Shown here piece after piece: positions 2,662 through 26,800 of a stretch of 64,000 nt of DNA. How positions within the stretch are numbered: the stretch's first letter is position 1; every line of letters begins with the position of its first letter. The notes under the pieces are model-generated. The model did not search any database. It was not told the DNA's origin and saw only the letters and a program-made list of their open reading frames with translations. A program made the position numbers and the translations under genes. Source of the DNA: Lachnospiraceae bacterium (GTDB taxonomy: Bacteria > Bacillota > Clostridia > Lachnospirales > Lachnospiraceae); contig JAILRH010000203.1 in assembly GCA_024698345.1 (NCBI GenBank), positions 28,968 through 92,967 on the forward strand, written 5' to 3'.

Positions 2662-5600
2662 TTACCTTACATCTCTAAATTTGTTGTGAGCGATAAGATA
2701 ATATGTAGGCTGCATATGCGGATGCTCTATTCCTCCAAACCAGAGAATCTTTCCGCTTGATAAAATAAATGATCCTTTTGCTGTTGCATATTTACCTTTT
2801 ACACCTGTCAATACGTTTGCCAAAACCTCTTCATTTCCTGCAAGGTTTGCAAGTACCTGCATCAGATATGCCGGACAGATGTTCTTCTCTGCATGCCATG
2901 CATAATAATATGTCTGCCATCCAAAGATTTTTACACCTTTTTCCCAGGAACCAACTGTATATATACTACAGAATTTGCTGAGTCGTCCCTTGTTAAAGAT
3001 ATTTTTCAATGCAAGCATGTCTAATTCTGCAAGTCCCGGTACAACATGTTTAGCATAACTAAGTGTTCCGTCACTTGATTTGTCAAATACGTATAATTCA
3101 TTTCTATTGTTTGCTATTCCTGCAAATGCATTAACGGTTCTATTAACACCTGTATCATTTCTGTAGTCATAACCTGTAAGCCACTCAAATGTTCCCTTAA
3201 TATTTCCGCTTAAAATGCCCTCATACCAGTATGTTTCATACTTGTCAGCAACACTTATGCTCTTTGTTATTCCGTATCTCTTAAATCCCCATGCTGAAAG
3301 TGGTAACTTTGGAATAAGATCATCTGAGTTAACAACATTAAATACCGTATTACATGTTCTTGAAAGTGTTGTTGTGAGTGGAGATGCAAATGTATATGTA
3401 AATGATCTATATCCTTTTTGCTCTCTCTCAAAGTACTCTCCAATAATATTTGCTATTCCTGCACCTCTTGAATGTCCTGTAATCAGAATACTCTTATTAT
3501 CAACTGAATTAATATTATATTTGTTAAGATATGCTTTTACATATGTAAGAATTCTGTTTGCAGCAACATCAAATCCCTTATGATGCTCTTTTGTCTTCCA
3601 ATCAGGATGGCTATATCCTAATTTATTATAATAATCATTTGTATTTGCACCAACGTCAAAATTACTTGACCATTCTCTTATACCATCCTCTGTTTTAGGC
3701 TTTGGCCCTGTTCCTCTTATTGTGAGAACTACAATTTCTCTTTCTTCACCGTTGTAAGAATACTTTCTGTGGCCGATGACAGCTTCTGACATATCATCAG
3801 TATCAACGCTGTATCCCTTTTCGTAAAGATTGATATTTTCAACGTCACTGTAACCCAACTTTTTCAATAAAGTTGTGTTTGTGTCATCTCCACCTGAAAT
3901 TCCTGATTTGAAATCAATATACAAATGCTCATAAATATCTGAAGCAAGAATTGATGAGAAAATAGACAAATCATCATCATACTTTGTATTGTTTCCAAAT
4001 AATTTTCTGTAATCTAAATCAAATTCAACATTACATGCCTTATTATTTTTATCCATATCCCTATAATTCATTACGCCTGTGAATGTTCTTGATTTAGGAG
4101 CATCGTCTTTGTCATCATTAATACCGTCAAAATCTGTATCTTCCATCAACGGATTAGAAACATAATTGTATACGTATATTTCTGTCAATCCATCATATTC
4201 AGTTTTTGGAACATTTTTTGCTTTAAGTAAAACCTTAATAAATGCTCCCAAATTAACTTTTTCTAATGTTCCAAGCTCGTACTTATCTGAAAGTGAATCC
4301 TTATCTGAACTGAATCCGTCATCAGAAAGCGGTTTTTTTAGTTTGATGTACTGATAATCACTGAGAAGTGCCCAATAACCGTCATTTACAACGCCACCGA
4401 TGTTTCTTGCAAGTTTGAGAAGTTCGTCACTGAAATTTGTATCAATATTTGCATAGATACCATCTGTTTCTTCATATAAATCTTCATAATCAGACTGATA
4501 TTTACTTCTTGTAACAACAGATGTGTTGATTTCCTTTTCTTTCAAAATTTCAATCATCTCATCCATTGTTGAAATTCCAAAATTGTTATCAATCTTGTAT
4601 CCTGCATCTGTAATTAAAATTGCAAACTTATCTGCATTCTTTCTAAAATCAAGTTCACTCATAGTTGCCAATGCATCAACTGCTGTTTCAGGTGTGTCAC
4701 CACCACCTGTTACTTTCAAAGCCTTGATTTTGTTCTTAAATTCATTTACGTCAGTGTACCAGTTTGAATTACCGTTTTTTACTGTTTTAGTATATTCGTT
4801 AGGACATGTAATATCCTTATAATCTACAAGAGCAAAATTTACTTTTACATTTAACTGTGAAAGTTCGTCAACAAATGCAGATACATTTTTTACAACGTTA
4901 TTGATTGCTCCGCCCATAGAACCAGTAGAGTCAATTACAAATACAATATCTGCCTGTCCTGCTGCTGTGCTATTTACTGCTGTTTCATCTGATGCAGAAC
5001 TATTTGCTACTGTTTCATCTGCTTTTGTTTCAGATACTTTTGTTTCAGATACTGTTGTTTCAGATACTGTTGTTTCTGTTGCTGTTGTCTCAGCTGCTGT
5101 TGTTTCTGTTGCTGTTGTTTCTGTTGTCTCTGTTGCTGCTGTTTCTTCCGAAGTTCCAAGCAGTTCTCTGCTTAATGGTGTTATGTCTGTTATTGCTGAC
5201 ACCTTTGTGCTTCCATCCGGAATAGTAATTCCCAAGCTGTCAAGGAACACTTCAACATCTAATACGAAAAATACTCCCGCACCTACTGAAGCACTGATTT
5301 TATTTCCATCACTCTCTGTCTCATAAGGCACAAACTCACCATCTTTGTACTCACATACCATAAGGTATTCAACTCTGTCACTTACCTTACTGCAGTCAAA
5401 TGAAAGTACAAGATCTGCTCCTTCATAATCTGTTGCAATTTCAACCTGCTTGCCGATAACTGCTCTGTTATCATCTAACTCGTAAACGTCTTCAGCCTCA
5501 ACAGAAACATGCTTGTCGATAAGTCCTGCAACTTTTGCCTCAATGGATGGTATCACATCATTTTCCTCAAAAAGCTCCTCTGCAAAATTGTCTTCACTTA

Positions 5601-6966
5601 ATTTCTGCTCAAATGTTCTCTCTGAGTCAGGTGTTGTTCCATCTGTTTTTTCCTTTGTAGGATCCAGTCCCAATGTTAATTCTTCATTATCTGAAAGACC
5701 GTCACCATCTGTATCACTATTAATTGGATTTGTGTTGTATTTATTTACTTCTTCACCATCTGTTATTCCGTCGCCGTCTGTATCTGCCTTTGATGGTTCC
5801 GTTTCAAGTCTGAGTTCTTCAATATTTGAAAGAGAATCTTCGTCTGCATCCTCGTCTGCATCACTAATACCATCCTCATCAGTATCAGCTAAAACAGGAT
5901 CAGTCTCAAGAAGATATAATTCCTCATAATCTGTAAGTCCGTCTCCGTCTGTATCTTCTTTTGTCACATCTGTGCCAAACATCTCTTCAAGATAATCTTC
6001 AACTCCGTCTCCGTCTGTATCCTTTTCAACGTAATCAGGAATTCCGTCTCCATCTGTATCTTCTTCCATCTCATCAGGGATTCCGTTTCCGTCTGTATCT
6101 TCTGCGTCATCGCCGAAAAGACCGCTTGCGGCTTTTTGCTTGTATGTGCACTGGGATAAAATAAATTTCTCCGGAACGTCTTCCTTGCTGCCACCTTTTC
6201 CTGAAAATCCGAATGTTACAGATTTGCCCGGCTTAATGTCAGCATTAAAGCCACTGTTTCTGACAACATATCTGTCATCATCACTAGGAACTAAAGCTGC
6301 ACTCCAGATATTTGTGATTGTTCTGTCATATGAAAAAATCATACTCCAGTCTTCAATTGTTGAATCAGAATTATTTGTGATTGTAATAGTTCCGTTAAAT
6401 CCGCTTCCCCAGTCTGCATCTATTTTATAGTCAACTGAAAAATCTTTAGAATCGATATAATCTATATCACTTACAAGATTAAAATATGCCGGGAATTTTT
6501 CGAAATCTTTATTTGCCGTGAATCCAAATTCAACCTGGCCGCCTATTGCAATCTCACGATTCCAACCCATGTTCTTATAAACATTTGTATCCTCACTGCT
6601 TTTTACAATCTGAGCATTCCAAATGTTTTCAATACTGTCATAACCAAGAGCCTCGAGATACCAGTTGTGAATAACCTCGTCACCTGTATTCACAATCTTA
6701 ATATAAGCTGTGTATCCACCATCCCACTTGTCTGAAACAGTATAAGTTACCGAGAAACCTTCGCCTTCATACTCTATCTGATTTGTCTCCATTTTTTCGA
6801 AATCCACACCCGGTCCATCAACCATTGTTTCTGATTCAACAGGATTAAATTCCGTATCCCCCGACAAATTGTCAAATAATAAATCTGCGTTAACAGTTCC
6901 TACCGGCTGAACAGCCAGTGCTGCAGTCATCATCAGTGCTGCAACTTTTTTGAAATTGATTTTCAC
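2662..6966 (-). CDS. Secreted multidomain protein: CBM2-like x2, calcium repeats, VWA, class 3 lipase
   Basis: A 1434-residue exported protein. Residues 1-27 are a signal peptide. Two tandem modules (about 65-150 and 175-260) have the spaced Trp, IWNA/IWSA and FGF pattern of family 2 carbohydrate-binding modules. About 285-430 hold eight or so DTDGDGI-type repeats (thrombospondin type 3, calcium binding). A Thr/Glu-rich linker (about 600-660) precedes a von Willebrand A domain starting near 672 with the MIDAS motif DSTGSMG. After a further DTDFDG repeat, the C-terminal third contains ITGHSRGAG near 1160, the nucleophile elbow of class 3 lipases. It could therefore bind a glycan surface and hydrolyse an ester; the natural substrate is unknown. 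No sorting signal or C-terminal anchor is visible. GGAGGAGG precedes the ATG. Confidence 0.85.
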   Translation of the reverse strand: MKINFKKVAALMMTAALAVQPVGTVNADLLFDNLSGDTEFNPVESETMVDGPGVDFEKMETNQIEYEGEGFSVTYTVSDKWDGGYTAYIKIVNTGDEVIHNWYLEALGYDSIENIWNAQIVKSSEDTNVYKNMGWNREIAIGGQVEFGFTANKDFEKFPAYFNLVSDIDYIDSKDFSVDYKIDADWGSGFNGTITITNNSDSTIEDWSMIFSYDRTITNIWSAALVPSDDDRYVVRNSGFNADIKPGKSVTFGFSGKGGSKEDVPEKFILSQCTYKQKAASGLFGDDAEDTDGNGIPDEMEEDTDGDGIPDYVEKDTDGDGVEDYLEEMFGTDVTKEDTDGDGLTDYEELYLLETDPVLADTDEDGISDADEDADEDSLSNIEELRLETEPSKADTDGDGITDGEEVNKYNTNPINSDTDGDGLSDNEELTLGLDPTKEKTDGTTPDSERTFEQKLSEDNFAEELFEENDVIPSIEAKVAGLIDKHVSVEAEDVYELDDNRAVIGKQVEIATDYEGADLVLSFDCSKVSDRVEYLMVCEYKDGEFVPYETESDGNKISASVGAGVFFVLDVEVFLDSLGITIPDGSTKVSAITDITPLSRELLGTSEETAATETTETTATETTAAETTATETTVSETTVSETKVSETKADETVANSSASDETAVNSTAAGQADIVFVIDSTGSMGGAINNVVKNVSAFVDELSQLNVKVNFALVDYKDITCPNEYTKTVKNGNSNWYTDVNEFKNKIKALKVTGGGDTPETAVDALATMSELDFRKNADKFAILITDAGYKIDNNFGISTMDEMIEILKEKEINTSVVTRSKYQSDYEDLYEETDGIYANIDTNFSDELLKLARNIGGVVNDGYWALLSDYQYIKLKKPLSDDGFSSDKDSLSDKYELGTLEKVNLGAFIKVLLKAKNVPKTEYDGLTEIYVYNYVSNPLMEDTDFDGINDDKDDAPKSRTFTGVMNYRDMDKNNKACNVEFDLDYRKLFGNNTKYDDDLSIFSSILASDIYEHLYIDFKSGISGGDDTNTTLLKKLGYSDVENINLYEKGYSVDTDDMSEAVIGHRKYSYNGEEREIVVLTIRGTGPKPKTEDGIREWSSNFDVGANTNDYYNKLGYSHPDWKTKEHHKGFDVAANRILTYVKAYLNKYNINSVDNKSILITGHSRGAGIANIIGEYFEREQKGYRSFTYTFASPLTTTLSRTCNTVFNVVNSDDLIPKLPLSAWGFKRYGITKSISVADKYETYWYEGILSGNIKGTFEWLTGYDYRNDTGVNRTVNAFAGIANNRNELYVFDKSSDGTLSYAKHVVPGLAELDMLALKNIFNKGRLSKFCSIYTVGSWEKGVKIFGWQTYYYAWHAEKNICPAYLMQVLANLAGNEEVLANVLTGVKGKYATAKGSFILSSGKILWFGGIEHPHMQPTYYLIAHNKFRDVR

Positions 6967-18321: not shown

Positions 18322-18594
18322 TTAGTTGATAGCGTCCTTTAAAGCCTTACCAGCTTTGAACTTTGGTACGTTAGATGCAGCAATCTTGATTGTCTTACCT
18401 GTCTGTGGGTTTCTTCCTTCTCTAGCTGCTCTCTTAGATACTTCGAATGTACCGAATCCAACTAACTGAACCTTGTCCCCTGCCTTTAATGCTTCTTCAA
18501 CTACTTCTGCGTAAGCTTTTACTGCCTTTGTAGCATCTGTTTTTGATAATCCTGTCTTTTCAGCGATTGCTGCGATAAAATCTGTCTTGTTCAT
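18322..18594 (-). CDS. hup: HU family nucleoid DNA-binding protein
   Basis: A 90-residue DNA-bending nucleoid protein. It starts [20 protein letters not shown], has [21 protein letters not shown] and the arm motif NPQTG, and ends [14 protein letters not shown], all typical of HU. The ribosome-binding site AGGAGGAA and a separate strong promoter upstream fit a highly expressed gene. Confidence 0.96.
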
Positions 18595-18661
18595 CGTATA
18601 ATTCCTCCTAATATAAAATATATAAACAATAATACGTTTTCTCGCGTATACCTCAAGTAAA

Positions 18662-18691
18662 TTTATACCATTTTTATACTTGTATTGTCAA
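18662..18691 (-). promoter_or_regulatory. Promoter of hup
   Basis: TTGACA (18691-18686) and TATAAA (18667-18662) on the minus strand, 18-nt spacer, about 65 nt before the hup start codon. Confidence 0.7.
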
Positions 18692-18776
18692 GCAAATTAA
18701 CGATTTTAGCCCTATTTTATTACATTTTTTTGTCATTTTGTAACAATATGTCAACTGACAAAATAAATCCACAAAA

Positions 18777-19322
18777 TCAACTATACAAATTACCAAAAAA
18801 TGCCGCTGTAACTTTCAAGATTTTTTCCTCAAAATCATATTTTTCTTCATCCTTTTGGTAACTGATTAACCCCACAGTGCCAATCACATCTCCACGACTC
18901 AAAATCGGATAAATAATCTGACTTTTATCCGTCAAGTCTTCACCCTCATAGACAAAAATCTTTTGTCCTTTATTATCTGAGGTATTGATAATCTTTCTCG
19001 CCTCCATAGCATTCTCCAGCTGTCGGCTGACGATTCTGTCCTCATATTCTGTTTTGCGCCTTCCTTCAGAAGCTATAATTCGCTCTCTGTCGCTTATTAT
19101 GACAGTCTTTGCAGTAATTTCCGCTATGGTCTTTGCAAATGATTTTGCATAATTACTCAGTTCCCCCATAGGCGAATACTTTTTCAGAACTATTTCGCCG
19201 TCCCTTGAAGTATATATCTCGATGGGGTCTCCCTCTCTGATATGATAATTCTTTCTGATTTCTTTCGGGATTACAATCCTGCCAAGTTTATCTACAGCTC
19301 TGATAACTCCTGTTGCTTTCAT
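18777..19322 (-). CDS. spoVT: SpoVT/AbrB-family transcriptional regulator
   Basis: A 181-residue regulator with an AbrB-type swapped-hairpin DNA-binding domain (MKATGVIRAVDKLGRIVIPK, residues 1-50) and a C-terminal GAF-like domain (about 55-181, ending VTAAFFGNLY). In spore formers SpoVT tunes sigma-G genes late in the forespore. The length equals B. subtilis SpoVT. The start was moved from 19409 to ATG 19322, where AAGGAGAT is present. It is intact, which contrasts with yabP and spoIIE nearby. Confidence 0.9.
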   Translation of the reverse strand: MKATGVIRAVDKLGRIVIPKEIRKNYHIREGDPIEIYTSRDGEIVLKKYSPMGELSNYAKSFAKTIAEITAKTVIISDRERIIASEGRRKTEYEDRIVSRQLENAMEARKIINTSDNKGQKIFVYEGEDLTDKSQIIYPILSRGDVIGTVGLISYQKDEEKYDFEEKILKVTAAFFGNLYS

Positions 19323-19396
19323 TTCTAAATCTCCTTTATATTTTTTATTATTATTGCTAATAATTAGGAGATTATACATATTTAGTCTGCACAGAT

Positions 19397-19609
19397 TTAT
19401 TCTGCACAAGCCATGGCAACTTTTGTTTTTATATATCTTCCATTTTTTACTCTCTCATCTTTTGGTTTCTTTGTGTTTGCCGGAATAGCCCACATATTAC
19501 CAAACTTAACCGCTCCTTTAATACGTCCCTGGAGACACAGTGTGTTGATTCGTCTCTCACTGATTCCCCACAACTCAGACATTTCTTTTAATGTTTTAAA
19601 TTCACCCAT
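19397..19609 (-). CDS. Small helix-turn-helix DNA-binding protein (excisionase/MerR-like)
   Basis: A 70-residue protein made of one winged-helix unit: FKTLKEMSELWGISERRINTL is the helix-turn-helix, followed by RIKGAVKFGNMWAIP, the pattern of HTH_17/excisionase-like domains. It has no enzymatic domain and no integrase next to it. ATG 19609 follows GGAGG with good spacing; the track start at 19624 does not. A c-di-GMP-I riboswitch with terminator lies 220 nt upstream on the same strand, so expression may respond to c-di-GMP. Its target is unknown. Confidence 0.75.
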   Translation of the reverse strand: MGEFKTLKEMSELWGISERRINTLCLQGRIKGAVKFGNMWAIPANTKKPKDERVKNGRYIKTKVAMACAE

Positions 19610-19693
19610 AAAAAACCTCCCCATGCTCTTTTGTTAATTTGTTTTCCATAATGTTGTTTTTCTTTGTTTCGTTTTTCCACATCCTGCACTTGT

Positions 19694-19783
19694 TTAGCAA
19701 TGCAGTAATTCAAGGTTTATTTCTGTCGGATTGCATAATTTAGTTTTACAACTCAACCATAGCGGGTTTTGTTTTTCACTCAT
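19694..19783 (-). CDS. Possible 29-codon ORF between riboswitch and HTH gene
   Basis: ATG 19783 follows AGGGG at a short spacing and opens a 29-residue frame (MSEKQNPLWLSCKTKLCNP..., three Cys) ending TAA. It lies after the riboswitch terminator and before the HTH gene. It could be a leader peptide, a small protein or chance; I recognise no homology. Confidence 0.3.
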   Translation of the reverse strand: MSEKQNPLWLSCKTKLCNPTEINLELLHC

Positions 19784-19827
19784 AATACCCCTAATAATTT
19801 TCATATCAACCTATCCTAAACTTGAAA

Positions 19828-19866
19828 TAAAAAAGAAAAAGCACTGCAGCTGGTACTACAATGCTT
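19828..19866 (-). terminator. Riboswitch expression-platform terminator
   Basis: The minus strand reads AGCATTGTAG-TACCAG-CTGCAGTGCT followed by TTTTCTTTTTT: a 10-bp stem with two G-U pairs and a clear U tract immediately 3' of the aptamer. Confidence 0.8.
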
Positions 19867-19958
19867 AATGCATGCAACTGGCTGACATTTTAAAGTCCCT
19901 ATAGCTTTGCGTCATTGCCTTTCGACAATTTTGCCTTTTTTTCTATTAAACCTATTGA
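19862..19958 (-). ncRNA. c-di-GMP-I (GEMM-I) riboswitch aptamer
   Basis: The minus strand shows the hallmarks in order: AAGGCAAA, a TTGTC-GAAA-GGCAA tetraloop hairpin, the invariant GACGCAAAGC, a second hairpin GGGACTTTAAAATGTC and AGCC..GTTGC. These match the GEMM-I consensus including the GAAA tetraloop and its receptor region. The base aligned with G20 of the Vc2 aptamer is G, which favours c-di-GMP rather than cGAMP. A terminator overlaps its 3' end, so ligand binding could control read-through to the small HTH gene. Confidence 0.85.
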
Positions 19959-19960
19959 TA

Positions 19961-19989
19961 ATTTTACTCTCATCATAGTACAATGTCAA
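19961..19989 (-). promoter_or_regulatory. Promoter of the c-di-GMP riboswitch transcript
   Basis: A perfect TTGACA (19989-19984) and TAAAAT (19966-19961) with a 17-nt spacer on the minus strand, placing the start of transcription just before the aptamer. Confidence 0.8.
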
Positions 19990-20097
19990 CCTTACCAATT
20001 TTTATCGGTATAAACTAAAAAATCAATACCCATTGTACCATGACGTTATTTGTACTGCAATTTCTTGCATTTTAATTATTTATTCAGGTTTTTATTC
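19990..20097. other. Gap downstream of the O-acylation cassette
   Basis: AT-rich spacer between the end of the DHHW gene and the riboswitch promoter. A near-palindrome TTTATCGGTATAAA lies near 20004-20018; no convincing terminator is visible. Confidence 0.3.
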
Positions 20098-21228
20098 CTA
20101 TTTTATTTTTACAATTCCACTGTTATTATTAAGTGAATCGATATTATAAAGAACAAGAACATCTTTAACATTTTCGTTCTTCTTTACATAATCACTGATA
20201 TGAGGCATATAATAGCGGGGATCGATTATGTGTATCTTTCTGTAGTGATATACCAAAAACGGTACAAAGCAATTTGCAAAACTGTCTTTGACAATCACAA
20301 GTTCATCCTCGCTCTCCGACTCCTGATTTTCAACAATCTGAAGAGCCTGATTTCCTCCTCCAAATACGCTGTACTTATCTTTTTTCTTCAAAAATGAATA
20401 GTCATAGTAATCATTTGTTTCTTTCTTTTTATCAACATATTCAACTTTGATTCCACTCTCAGGAAATTCAACAGCCTCTATTACATCAGGCTTCATGCTC
20501 TTAATAAGAACTTTAGAATACAAAGTTCCCCTGAAGTCTTTTGCCAATGTCTTCCTTTCAAAATCTTCAATATCTTTTGGCTCAATACCTGTCTGTTTAC
20601 AGTACTGTCTGTATCCTGCATAGGCGCCATAATAATTCCAATGATGATCCAGATTATAATACAGATTGTGATTGTCTTTTTCATTAAGCAGTTCTTTTAC
20701 TACATCAATGCCATTGCAATTTGTATTATCATAAATCTCGTGAATTATTGCCTGCTCATTTACAATGTCAGGCGCATTTTTAGGAAGTTGGGATGAATAA
20801 ACCGTTGCATTAGTCGGAATTAACATGAGATTAAGTTCTGTTCCTGTACCTTCAAGATTATCACAAAGTCTGTTAATTCTATCTTCAAACACACCTGTTT
20901 GAGGTTCTTCAATATGCTGTATGAGTCTGCCTTTTCCCAGAAAAACATTGTTAAATTCTTTGATTCCCGCAATCTTTTGAACGGAGCATTTAAGTGATAC
21001 CAACTCATCTCTCAGTGGAAAATGATCTGACACGTATTTTTCTACTTCGTCAGAAAAAACTCCCTCTTTAATATTTTTCAAAGTAACAACCGGTACCTTT
21101 TGTAACATTCTGTTTTCATTCTCAGAGAAATCTTTTTTTGGAAGAACTATTATTAAAACCGGTACCAGCAAAATAAGTGCAGCTACTGTAACCGGCACTA
21201 TTTTATTTTGCATTATTTTATTTTGCAT
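20098..21228 (-). CDS. DHHW-family SGNH-like protein (AlgX/AlgJ-like)
   Basis: A 376-residue exported membrane-anchored protein: residues 10-29 are an N-terminal hydrophobic anchor, then NENRMLQKVP, FSDHFPLRD-type region and the defining DHHW near 192, followed by late KDSFANCFVPFL. Proteins of this type accompany MBOAT acyltransferases and are thought to acetylate extracellular polysaccharide, like AlgJ/AlgX. It lies 20 nt downstream of the MBOAT gene and is the last gene of the cassette. The first ATG has AGGAGG; the start contains a repeated MQNKI. Confidence 0.85.
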   Translation of the reverse strand: MQNKIMQNKIVPVTVAALILLVPVLIIVLPKKDFSENENRMLQKVPVVTLKNIKEGVFSDEVEKYVSDHFPLRDELVSLKCSVQKIAGIKEFNNVFLGKGRLIQHIEEPQTGVFEDRINRLCDNLEGTGTELNLMLIPTNATVYSSQLPKNAPDIVNEQAIIHEIYDNTNCNGIDVVKELLNEKDNHNLYYNLDHHWNYYGAYAGYRQYCKQTGIEPKDIEDFERKTLAKDFRGTLYSKVLIKSMKPDVIEAVEFPESGIKVEYVDKKKETNDYYDYSFLKKKDKYSVFGGGNQALQIVENQESESEDELVIVKDSFANCFVPFLVYHYRKIHIIDPRYYMPHISDYVKKNENVKDVLVLYNIDSLNNNSGIVKIK

Positions 21229-24793: not shown

Positions 24794-26800
24794 TTAGTTA
24801 TTGTCCTCCTTATTATCATCTTTTTTATCATCGTTGTTGTCGCCTTTGTTGTCGTCTTTATTATCGTTCTTATCTTCTTCCTTTTTATTATCCTCAGAGT
24901 TCTCATCTGCTGCTGTTTCCTGGGCTTTCGTCTCCTCAGCCGTTGTTTCAGCGGCAGTTGTTTCAGCGGCAGTTGTTTCTCCATTGATAATATTTGTAAG
25001 ATTTACATCATTCTCATAAAGAGTCTCTGCAACACCGTTAAGACTCTCAACATCTGTATGCAGTTTATCTATCTCTGAATGTAATCCATTAACATATCCC
25101 TGCATTGAATTAATATAATTATTAAGAGAGTTAACTTTCCAGAAAAGAACAACTACAACCCCAAGAGACAGAATAAGCAAAGCAGTAAGAATACCCACAA
25201 ATCTCTTTAAGCCTTTTGTGCCTTCATTATACTCCGCTTCCTCTTCCGGATAAATATAATTAACAGAATCGGAATCTTTTATCTTTCTCTCAGACTCTTC
25301 GAATACTTTTTCGAATTCATTATCATTATTATTTTTAACTTCTTCGAGAGTGATCTCTTCTCGCATATTATTGTCTGACGCTGTATTGCTGTCACCGCTA
25401 ATTGATGATACAGTATCATCTATCAAAAATGGTGTCGCATTTTTTTCCTCAGACTTCTCACTCTTTTTTGGAGCCGCTTCTTCATTTATATCAGATTCAA
25501 CCGCTTCTTCATTTACTTCCGCATTTGATTCCACATTTGATTCTGCATTTGATTCTGCATCTAAGTCTTCATCTACCTTTTCAAGGTCATAATGTTCTTC
25601 AAATGCCCGAGCCACTTCATTTATATAAGCCTGACTCTGAGCATCACTGTCATAGTCTGACTCATTACCTTCCATTTCTTCGGAATCAGATTCATCTTTA
25701 GAATCTTCACCGGCATTGGAATGTGCATCAACATCATAAGCTTCCACCATAGGAATCTCAACCTCAGGATACTCTTCTGCTGCTGGTTCTGCTGCTGGTT
25801 CTGCTGTTGGTTCTGCTGACACTTCTTCTGCGACTTCTTCTGCAACTTCTTCTGCAACTTCTGCTACAACCTCTTCAACCGGCGCAACAGGTGTTTCTAC
25901 ATTGCCTGCTTCGTCTGCTGCAACTTCTGCTGCTGGTTCTGCTGTTGGTTCTTCCGCAACATCTTCTGCTATTGGTTCTGGCGCAACATCTGCTGCAACA
26001 TCTTCTGCTGATTCTGCTACAGTCTCTTCAACCGGCGCAACAGGTGTTTCTACATTGCCTGCTTCTTCTGCCGCAACTTCTGCTGTTGGTTCTGCTGCGA
26101 CTTCTTCTGCGACTTCTTCTGCAACTTCTTCTGCAACTTCTGCTACAGCCTCTTCAACCGGCGCAACAGGTGTTTCTACATTGCCTTCTTCTTCTGCAAC
26201 TTCTGCTGCTGGTTCTGCTGACACTTCTGCCTCAGGCAATTTCTGAACAGGCTCTGCAATTTCAGGGATTATACGTTTTTCTTTCTTCTTACTTTCATCA
26301 TCAGTAAAAATAAAGAATCCGTCTATCTTTTTCATTTTTCCGTTTTCCATGTAGTAAAATGCCTCTACTATCTGAACCGGGTCCACGATATATTCAATTA
26401 TATTCTTGCCTTCAAAGGTACGTGTCTGAAAATACTCATCGTACTCTGTTGCATTACAGCCGGTGTCAGGATTTGTGTGCATCCATCCGATTATCTTATA
26501 TGACGGATAGTTCTTCTTAACCTGCTCAATGTACTTGATAGTATCCTTTGTAAACTTTATCGAGTTAGATGTTGCCTCACAATGCTTAGCCTCAATAAAA
26601 GCACGAATAATATAATAGTGTGTCTCACCTTTTCTAAGTTTGTTTCCAAGCAGAATCCCCCCTGCCTGAACTACGTTCTTGTCCTTAGAAAAATTAAATA
26701 TATCTTTGTATACTTCTTTTGAAATATATACTCTCTGTAATCCCTGGCCTGTACCTCCGACAACTCTTGTCTTTGCAGGCAATCTGTTCTCTTTGCTCAA
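24794..26800 (-). CDS. Membrane protein with degenerate JAMM/MPN domain and Ala/Glu repeat linker
   Basis: 668 residues, starting at TTG with AGAAGGA upstream. Residues 20-165 resemble a JAB1/MPN (JAMM) isopeptidase fold: QAGGILLGNK, then H108-x-N110-P with T118 and D121, where the catalytic pattern would be HxH, Ser and Asp, and Gln45 stands where the catalytic Glu is expected. Zinc binding is therefore probably lost. Residues about 190-420 are Ala/Glu/Pro/Val-rich with three long near-identical repeats (ETPVAPVEE), followed by an acidic region, one membrane helix near 530-552, a short coiled coil and an exported-side tail rich in Thr/Glu then Lys/Asp/Asn. The JAMM part would be cytoplasmic. 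No function is known to me. Confidence 0.7.
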   Translation of the reverse strand: MSKENRLPAKTRVVGGTGQGLQRVYISKEVYKDIFNFSKDKNVVQAGGILLGNKLRKGETHYYIIRAFIEAKHCEATSNSIKFTKDTIKYIEQVKKNYPSYKIIGWMHTNPDTGCNATEYDEYFQTRTFEGKNIIEYIVDPVQIVEAFYYMENGKMKKIDGFFIFTDDESKKKEKRIIPEIAEPVQKLPEAEVSAEPAAEVAEEEGNVETPVAPVEEAVAEVAEEVAEEVAEEVAAEPTAEVAAEEAGNVETPVAPVEETVAESAEDVAADVAPEPIAEDVAEEPTAEPAAEVAADEAGNVETPVAPVEEVVAEVAEEVAEEVAEEVSAEPTAEPAAEPAAEEYPEVEIPMVEAYDVDAHSNAGEDSKDESDSEEMEGNESDYDSDAQSQAYINEVARAFEEHYDLEKVDEDLDAESNAESNVESNAEVNEEAVESDINEEAAPKKSEKSEEKNATPFLIDDTVSSISGDSNTASDNNMREEITLEEVKNNNDNEFEKVFEESERKIKDSDSVNYIYPEEEAEYNEGTKGLKRFVGILTALLILSLGVVVVLFWKVNSLNNYINSMQGYVNGLHSEIDKLHTDVESLNGVAETLYENDVNLTNIINGETTAAETTAAETTAEETKAQETAADENSEDNKKEEDKNDNKDDNKGDNNDDKKDDNKEDNN
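25800..26230. repeat. Direct repeats within the JAMM-like gene
   Basis: The segment TCTTCAACCGGCGCAACAGG plus flanking GCNACTTCTTCTGC units is present three times (near 25872, 26030, 26151), encoding the Ala/Glu linker. Such arrays are prone to length change. Confidence 0.75.

Follow-up and report, generated by a model that had tools for sequence, protein, structure and literature searches.

The usual partners of class I c-di-GMP riboswitches are genes for motility, adhesion, and the cell surface. In the window analyzed here, a stretch of 64,000 nucleotides from a Lachnospiraceae bacterium, such an element is located directly ahead of a gene for a small helix-turn-helix (HTH) protein. The reading favored by our results, with a probability of roughly 0.7, is that of a transcription-terminating c-di-GMP-I riboswitch, the target of which is a small, predicted winged-HTH protein that probably regulates itself and belongs to a family standing at the heads of accessory, often defense-type, operons.

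A GEMM-I aptamer had been named in the preliminary description of this locus, and the search of the 64-kb window with the Rfam c-di-GMP-I model (RF01051) confirmed it. Positions 19870-19945 (-) covered the full model (1-87) with a score of 63.2 bits (E = 5.2e-10), compared to the curated gathering score of 35 bits. In the Rfam alignment, the equivalents of Vc2 G20, A47, and C92 are G, A, and C, A47 and C92 being placed according to the crystal structures. These predicted ligand contacts are those to be expected if the RNA binds c-di-GMP, and the G at the G20 position, already read there before, supports c-di-GMP rather than cGAMP as the ligand by the G20 rule. In Cd1, the equivalent of Vc2 G20 is G11 (PMC9262584). 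Across the family aptamer alignment, 44 two-sided (compensatory) changes were counted in the paired elements, compared to 14.6 after shuffling (0 of 500 shuffles). Judged from its sequence, the riboswitch in the window is genuine, and the leader would bind c-di-GMP. Furthermore, nine GGDEF matches were found in the genome, so that c-di-GMP is probably made in this bacterium.

The promoter of the unit, TTGACA-17-TAAAAT, is located at 19961-19989 (-); it is present as proposed earlier, but was called perfect, whereas it matches the consensus in 11 out of 12 positions and is near-consensus. Downstream of the aptamer, the previously described terminator with its U tract was recovered at 19829-19866 (-), consisting of a 12-bp hairpin (19866-19839) and a T tract (-15.1 kcal/mol). 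It is conserved in three species, provides the aptamer with an expression platform, and was the only terminator-like site detected in the region 18500-20700 on both strands.

The genus sample comprised three genomes, and the regions read were the window, G297/SIG293, and RUG215 (identical to G397 here). The riboswitch-HTH pair was kept in all three genomes, with one pair each, and in the window, SIG293, and RUG215 it is located between the DHHW gene and spoVT. The former encodes a DHHW/AlgX-like protein just upstream and outside the unit (20098-21228 (-); PF14286, E = 5.4e-35). The next gene downstream, spoVT (18777-19322 (-); SpoVT_C, E = 4.3e-30; TIGR02851 with 185.7 bits, below its cut-off), opens a conserved sporulation/division cluster. 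In the genus alignment, promoter, aptamer, terminator, ribosome-binding site, and HTH gene were conserved; the stretch from the terminator to the HTH gene was indel-rich and fast-evolving and measures about 200 nt, where other lineages have a few tens of nucleotides. A 29-codon ORF in this stretch (19694-19783 (-)) had been counted as part of the unit; its letters exist, but an indel disrupts the reading frame in RUG215/G397, SIG293 lacks the ORF, and it is probably no gene. The HTH gene, on the other hand, is supported as the target of the riboswitch. The arrangement is not a product of chance, since three species have retained the riboswitch, its location, and the HTH gene, and other genera show the same pairing. 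Elsewhere in the window, a 668-aa ORF (24794-26800 (-)) was noticed, which by eye begins like a JAB/MPN-type domain and continues with extended repeats rich in Glu and Ala and with what looks like a transmembrane segment.

The HTH gene (19397-19609 (-)) is preceded by a putative ribosome-binding site read from the sequence, GGGGAGG (19616-19622 (-)), which is identical in three species, and encodes an HTH_17/excisionase-like DNA-binding protein of 70 aa. Its match to Pfam HTH_17 (E = 8.1e-5) scored 23.3 bits and thus stays below the curated cut-off of 27 bits. None of the NCBIfam profiles matched the protein, and a sequence-profile search against solved structures returned no match. The AF2 model (pLDDT 72, pTM 0.49) features a helix-turn-helix and a two-strand wing, and its best meaningful fold matches were the excisionases of lambda and Tn916, both being weak (Foldseek E > 0.1; TMt ~0.74 for lambda Xis). 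In L062, L071, L121, and many other loci, the HTH domain forms the start of larger open frames of about 400-930 aa, resembling fusions.

Two c-di-GMP-I elements were identified in the genome, the assembly of which is fragmented (263 contigs), and both are located directly upstream of members of the same HTH family. At the second pair (L038 (G000:C72), about 3882-5942 (-); riboswitch at C72:8865-8941 (-)), promoter, aptamer, and a terminator-like hairpin are present, and the HTH gene carries an in-frame TAA and a frameshift. Dynamin-like GTPase genes of LeoABC-like type follow this broken gene.

The preliminary description had also suggested looking for the same pairing in other genomes. A total of 80 HTH relatives were taken from species-representative genomes, and 18 aptamers were used to build a covariance model for searching their flanks. 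In 15 out of the 80 relatives, a same-strand aptamer was detected 60-275 nt before the start of the HTH gene; if the 15 matches were placed at random, about 0.3 of them would be expected at such a position, and no further significant aptamer match was found in the 703,520 bases of flanks. When the loci were rescanned with the Rfam model and its cut-off, nine of them passed (L047, L051, L054, L055, L057, L087, L104, L106, and L114), as did the genus members. The aptamers of L048, L053, and L078 were below this cut-off and were excluded from the intact riboswitches. Losses of the riboswitch are visible, since the promoter is fused into the aptamer in L053 and the aptamer is eroded in L056, with the terminator still being there. 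In a separate draw, 196 out of 397 family genomes encoded the HTH family. Among 28 of the best loci from this draw, three featured an aptamer of more than 39 bits, namely L087 and L053 (already counted) and G004, an orphan riboswitch-HTH pair for which an operon was not evident in the 1.5 kb downstream. The exact riboswitch consensus had no match in viral contigs.

On the HTH tree, which is built from few columns and leaves many forks unresolved, the riboswitch label required 5 changes compared to 15.7 after shuffling (0 of 500 shuffles). The riboswitch is found in a clade of 14 members, almost all of them bearing it, in the genus of the window, and in the pair L104/L106. On these comparisons, the riboswitch-HTH pairing is a recurrent module.

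Several further loci of the HTH family deserve mention. In L085 (Oscillospiraceae), a weak GEMM-I-like element (4181-4248; 15.7 bits) is located exactly between promoter and HTH gene and apparently represents a decayed GEMM-I relic. The HTH-linked aptamers of L087 (Acetivibrio ethanolgignens, 1250-1325) and L078 have an A at the position of Vc2 G20, which is the mark of cGAMP-responsive GEMM-I members, and their ligand may differ from c-di-GMP. In the pair L026/L040 (G174:C11), the HTH frame diverges abruptly past the conserved Trp40, as if interrupted.

The second pair with its broken HTH gene, the recurrence of the module with defense-type operons, and the motif in the promoter spacer are not contained in the preliminary description. 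Regarding the operons, most pairs elsewhere look like heads of operons with defense-like genes, these assignments being profile matches, several of them weak, with predicted functions. A Mokosh-like helicase (MkoA, E = 8e-107) is encoded in the operon of L047, a HerA/mads_8-like ATPase in L048, and a Druantia DruE-like helicase (E = 6e-74) in L104. A WYL regulator and LeoABC-like dynamins were assigned to L051, L055, L054, L078, and C72, where L051 and L055 are loci of the cultured relatives [Clostridium] aminophilum and Butyrivibrio sp. MC2013, respectively. The operon of L106 features a PD-T4-6-like kinase with a vWA protein, that of L057 a HEC-07-like match with vWA, and that of L114 a macro-domain gene. 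In a PADLOC scan of the riboswitch-negative HTH operons, at least 5 out of 47 first genes were DNA methyltransferases, indicating that the HTH family heads defense-type operons without the riboswitch, too. Strong terminator-like hairpins between promoter and HTH gene were observed in the leaders of L059, L060, and L111, which have no riboswitch, and are possible attenuators of another kind. The c-di-GMP-I elements of the bacterial family that are not followed by an HTH gene precede, as judged by eye, sensor-kinase-like, secreted, or surface-type frames.

Nearly all members of the HTH family, with or without riboswitch, possess a promoter with a 17-bp spacer carrying a conserved motif. The family consensus of this motif is TTC-N8-G, and the spacer of the window promoter contains TAC-N8-GAG as putative HTH operator, so that aptamer and HTH gene of the window likewise stand behind a spacer-motif promoter. 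Scanning of the upstream regions yielded scores of 14-18 for 76 out of 80, and shuffles almost never exceeded 14. In 69 aligned promoters, the spacer C at +11 is conserved in 99% and the G at +20 in 91%; these are not promoter positions, yet they are nearly invariant. Family members that differ more in the spacer also differ more in the HTH protein itself (Mantel r = 0.47; 0 of 2000 permutations), compared to r = 0.09 for a control flank, and such co-variation can partly be produced by shared descent alone. Because of this co-variation, we take the spacer motif as the probable binding site of the HTH protein, through which it would control its own promoter. Within the genome, the full operator pattern occurs at the window promoter alone, and sites with one mismatch are the C72 promoter and three unrelated places inside genes or before tRNAs; the search of the genome for an HTH regulon by this pattern yielded nothing beyond these sites.

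In the proposed mechanism, RNA polymerase would start from the TTGACA/TAAAAT promoter, and c-di-GMP on the leader would decide whether transcription ends at about 19830 or continues into the HTH gene, whose product would bind the spacer motif and repress its own transcription. Most likely, c-di-GMP would favor termination (OFF). Terminators were present after nearly all family aptamers, and family-wide, their 5' arms were complementary to their own aptamers (Fisher p = 3e-4 with shuffled arms and 7e-3 with shuffled aptamers). By analogy with Cd1, this points to an OFF-switch arrangement, in which the ligand would free the arm and termination would follow. Cd1 is an OFF switch and was described as being without P1 (PMC9262584), and most class I switches of C. 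difficile terminate with c-di-GMP (PMC7699646). For the window, the OFF direction is therefore considered probable by analogy.

The opposite direction, an ON switch in which a ligand-stabilized P1 blocks termination and induces the HTH gene, appears unlikely, although a P1 can be drawn. Its possible 5' strand, GUUUAAU (19945-19951 (-)), pairs with AUUAAGC at 19863-19869, and this 7-bp helix would share four nucleotides with the terminator base, the 3' strand containing the first four terminator bases. A shorter P1 can be drawn in RUG215. Moreover, the best antiterminator pairing in the window, GGCAAUGA/GCAUUGUA with -6.5 kcal/mol, does not exceed what shuffles give (p = 0.35) and was rejected. 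However, no comparable P1 is found in SIG293 despite its conserved aptamer and terminator, which makes the window P1 uncertain; furthermore, the terminator arms of the family pair rather with the aptamer core, and Cd1 manages OFF switching without this helix.

It was also considered that the riboswitch yields a short terminated RNA only, or acts elsewhere, and that the HTH gene is transcribed from its own downstream promoter. The preliminary description had regarded such an internal promoter as speaking against its reading, and a candidate indeed exists between terminator and HTH gene (TTGATA-16-TATTAT, 19809-19782, 10 out of 12 consensus matches), in a stretch that is unusually long in this genus. 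A stronger second promoter downstream of the riboswitch is known for cdi1_4 of C. difficile (PMC7699646). However, the -10 of the internal candidate is lost in both sister species, and it was rejected as the promoter of the HTH gene. In other lineages, the HTH start follows 60-97 nt past the aptamer, and the terminator fills most of this distance, so that little room is left for a promoter. An independent HTH promoter is thus improbable, even more so than an ON switch.

The window copy is an orphan pair, since no accessory or defense genes were found behind its HTH gene, spoVT and the sporulation/division cluster being located there instead. It is very improbable that the unit is a functionless remnant of a lost accessory operon, as could be suspected from the missing operon and from decayed copies such as C72, L053, and L056, because the selection test largely refutes this: the dN/dS between the window and RUG215 is 0.012 for the HTH protein and 0.094 for SpoVT. 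In the comparison with SIG293, identity amounts to 87% for the HTH protein, but only 62% for SpoVT. By these measures, purifying selection acts more strongly on the HTH protein than on the neighboring SpoVT, and together with the promoter, aptamer, and terminator conserved in three species, the low value indicates that the unit is maintained by selection. In the absence of an accessory operon, the output of the terminating riboswitch in the window would be either the level of the HTH protein, acting at sites elsewhere, or a modest extension of transcription into spoVT; no terminator was found between the HTH gene and spoVT. Read-through to the HTH gene is less certain in the window than in other lineages, given the long, fast-evolving stretch behind the terminator. 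Ahead of spoVT (19323-19396 (-)), a GTATA-N16-CAATAATA-like sequence is conserved in the genus and possibly represents a forespore sigma promoter.

As a tentative extension, which we rate somewhat below an even chance, riboswitch and autoregulatory HTH gene would form a transferable head that places anti-phage-type operons of Lachnospiraceae under c-di-GMP, the window copy being an orphan domesticated beside spoVT. If true, the decision between sessile and motile life would be coupled to defense via c-di-GMP, and the recurrent pairing would mean an RNA-mediated gating of Mokosh-, HerA-, LeoABC-, and Druantia-like genes by a second messenger. The pairing offers a small, directly testable system, and the window copy, an orphan beside spoVT that is very strongly selected, would offer the simplest setting for testing the circuit.

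The riboswitch class is already known, and its pairing with an HTH family heading defense-type operons appears to be new: the search of the open-access literature found neither a report on the pairing of c-di-GMP riboswitches with this HTH family nor one on such riboswitches at the head of defense-type operons. That a transcription factor would stand one step below c-di-GMP, as proposed in the preliminary description, is not novel in itself, since the Vc2 riboswitch of V. cholerae controls the regulator TfoY in a comparable position (PMC7371385). Vc2-tfoY differs from the window family in its translational control and in not forming a recurrent module with accessory operons. TfoY is not known to be related to the small HTH protein.

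The Cd1-type RF01051 switches of C. difficile resemble the window in aptamer family, terminator platform, and their occurrence in Firmicutes. The class I targets listed for this species comprise flagellar, adhesin, protease, and small hypothetical genes as well as type I antitoxin RNAs and, unlike in the present family, include no HTH-headed operons (PMC11477304). In C. difficile prophages, the riboswitches cdi1_4 and cdi1_5 precede the type I antitoxin RNAs RCd11 and RCd12, and thus, as in the present family, a c-di-GMP-I switch is joined to conflict genes of mobile elements (PMC7699646); the target there, however, is an antisense RNA, and no HTH protein is involved. Finally, the window HTH protein resembles the Xis proteins of lambda and Tn916 in its small size and, weakly, in its predicted fold. 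Unlike for these excisionases, no recombinase partner was seen for the HTH family, the members of which head operons and share a conserved motif in their promoters.
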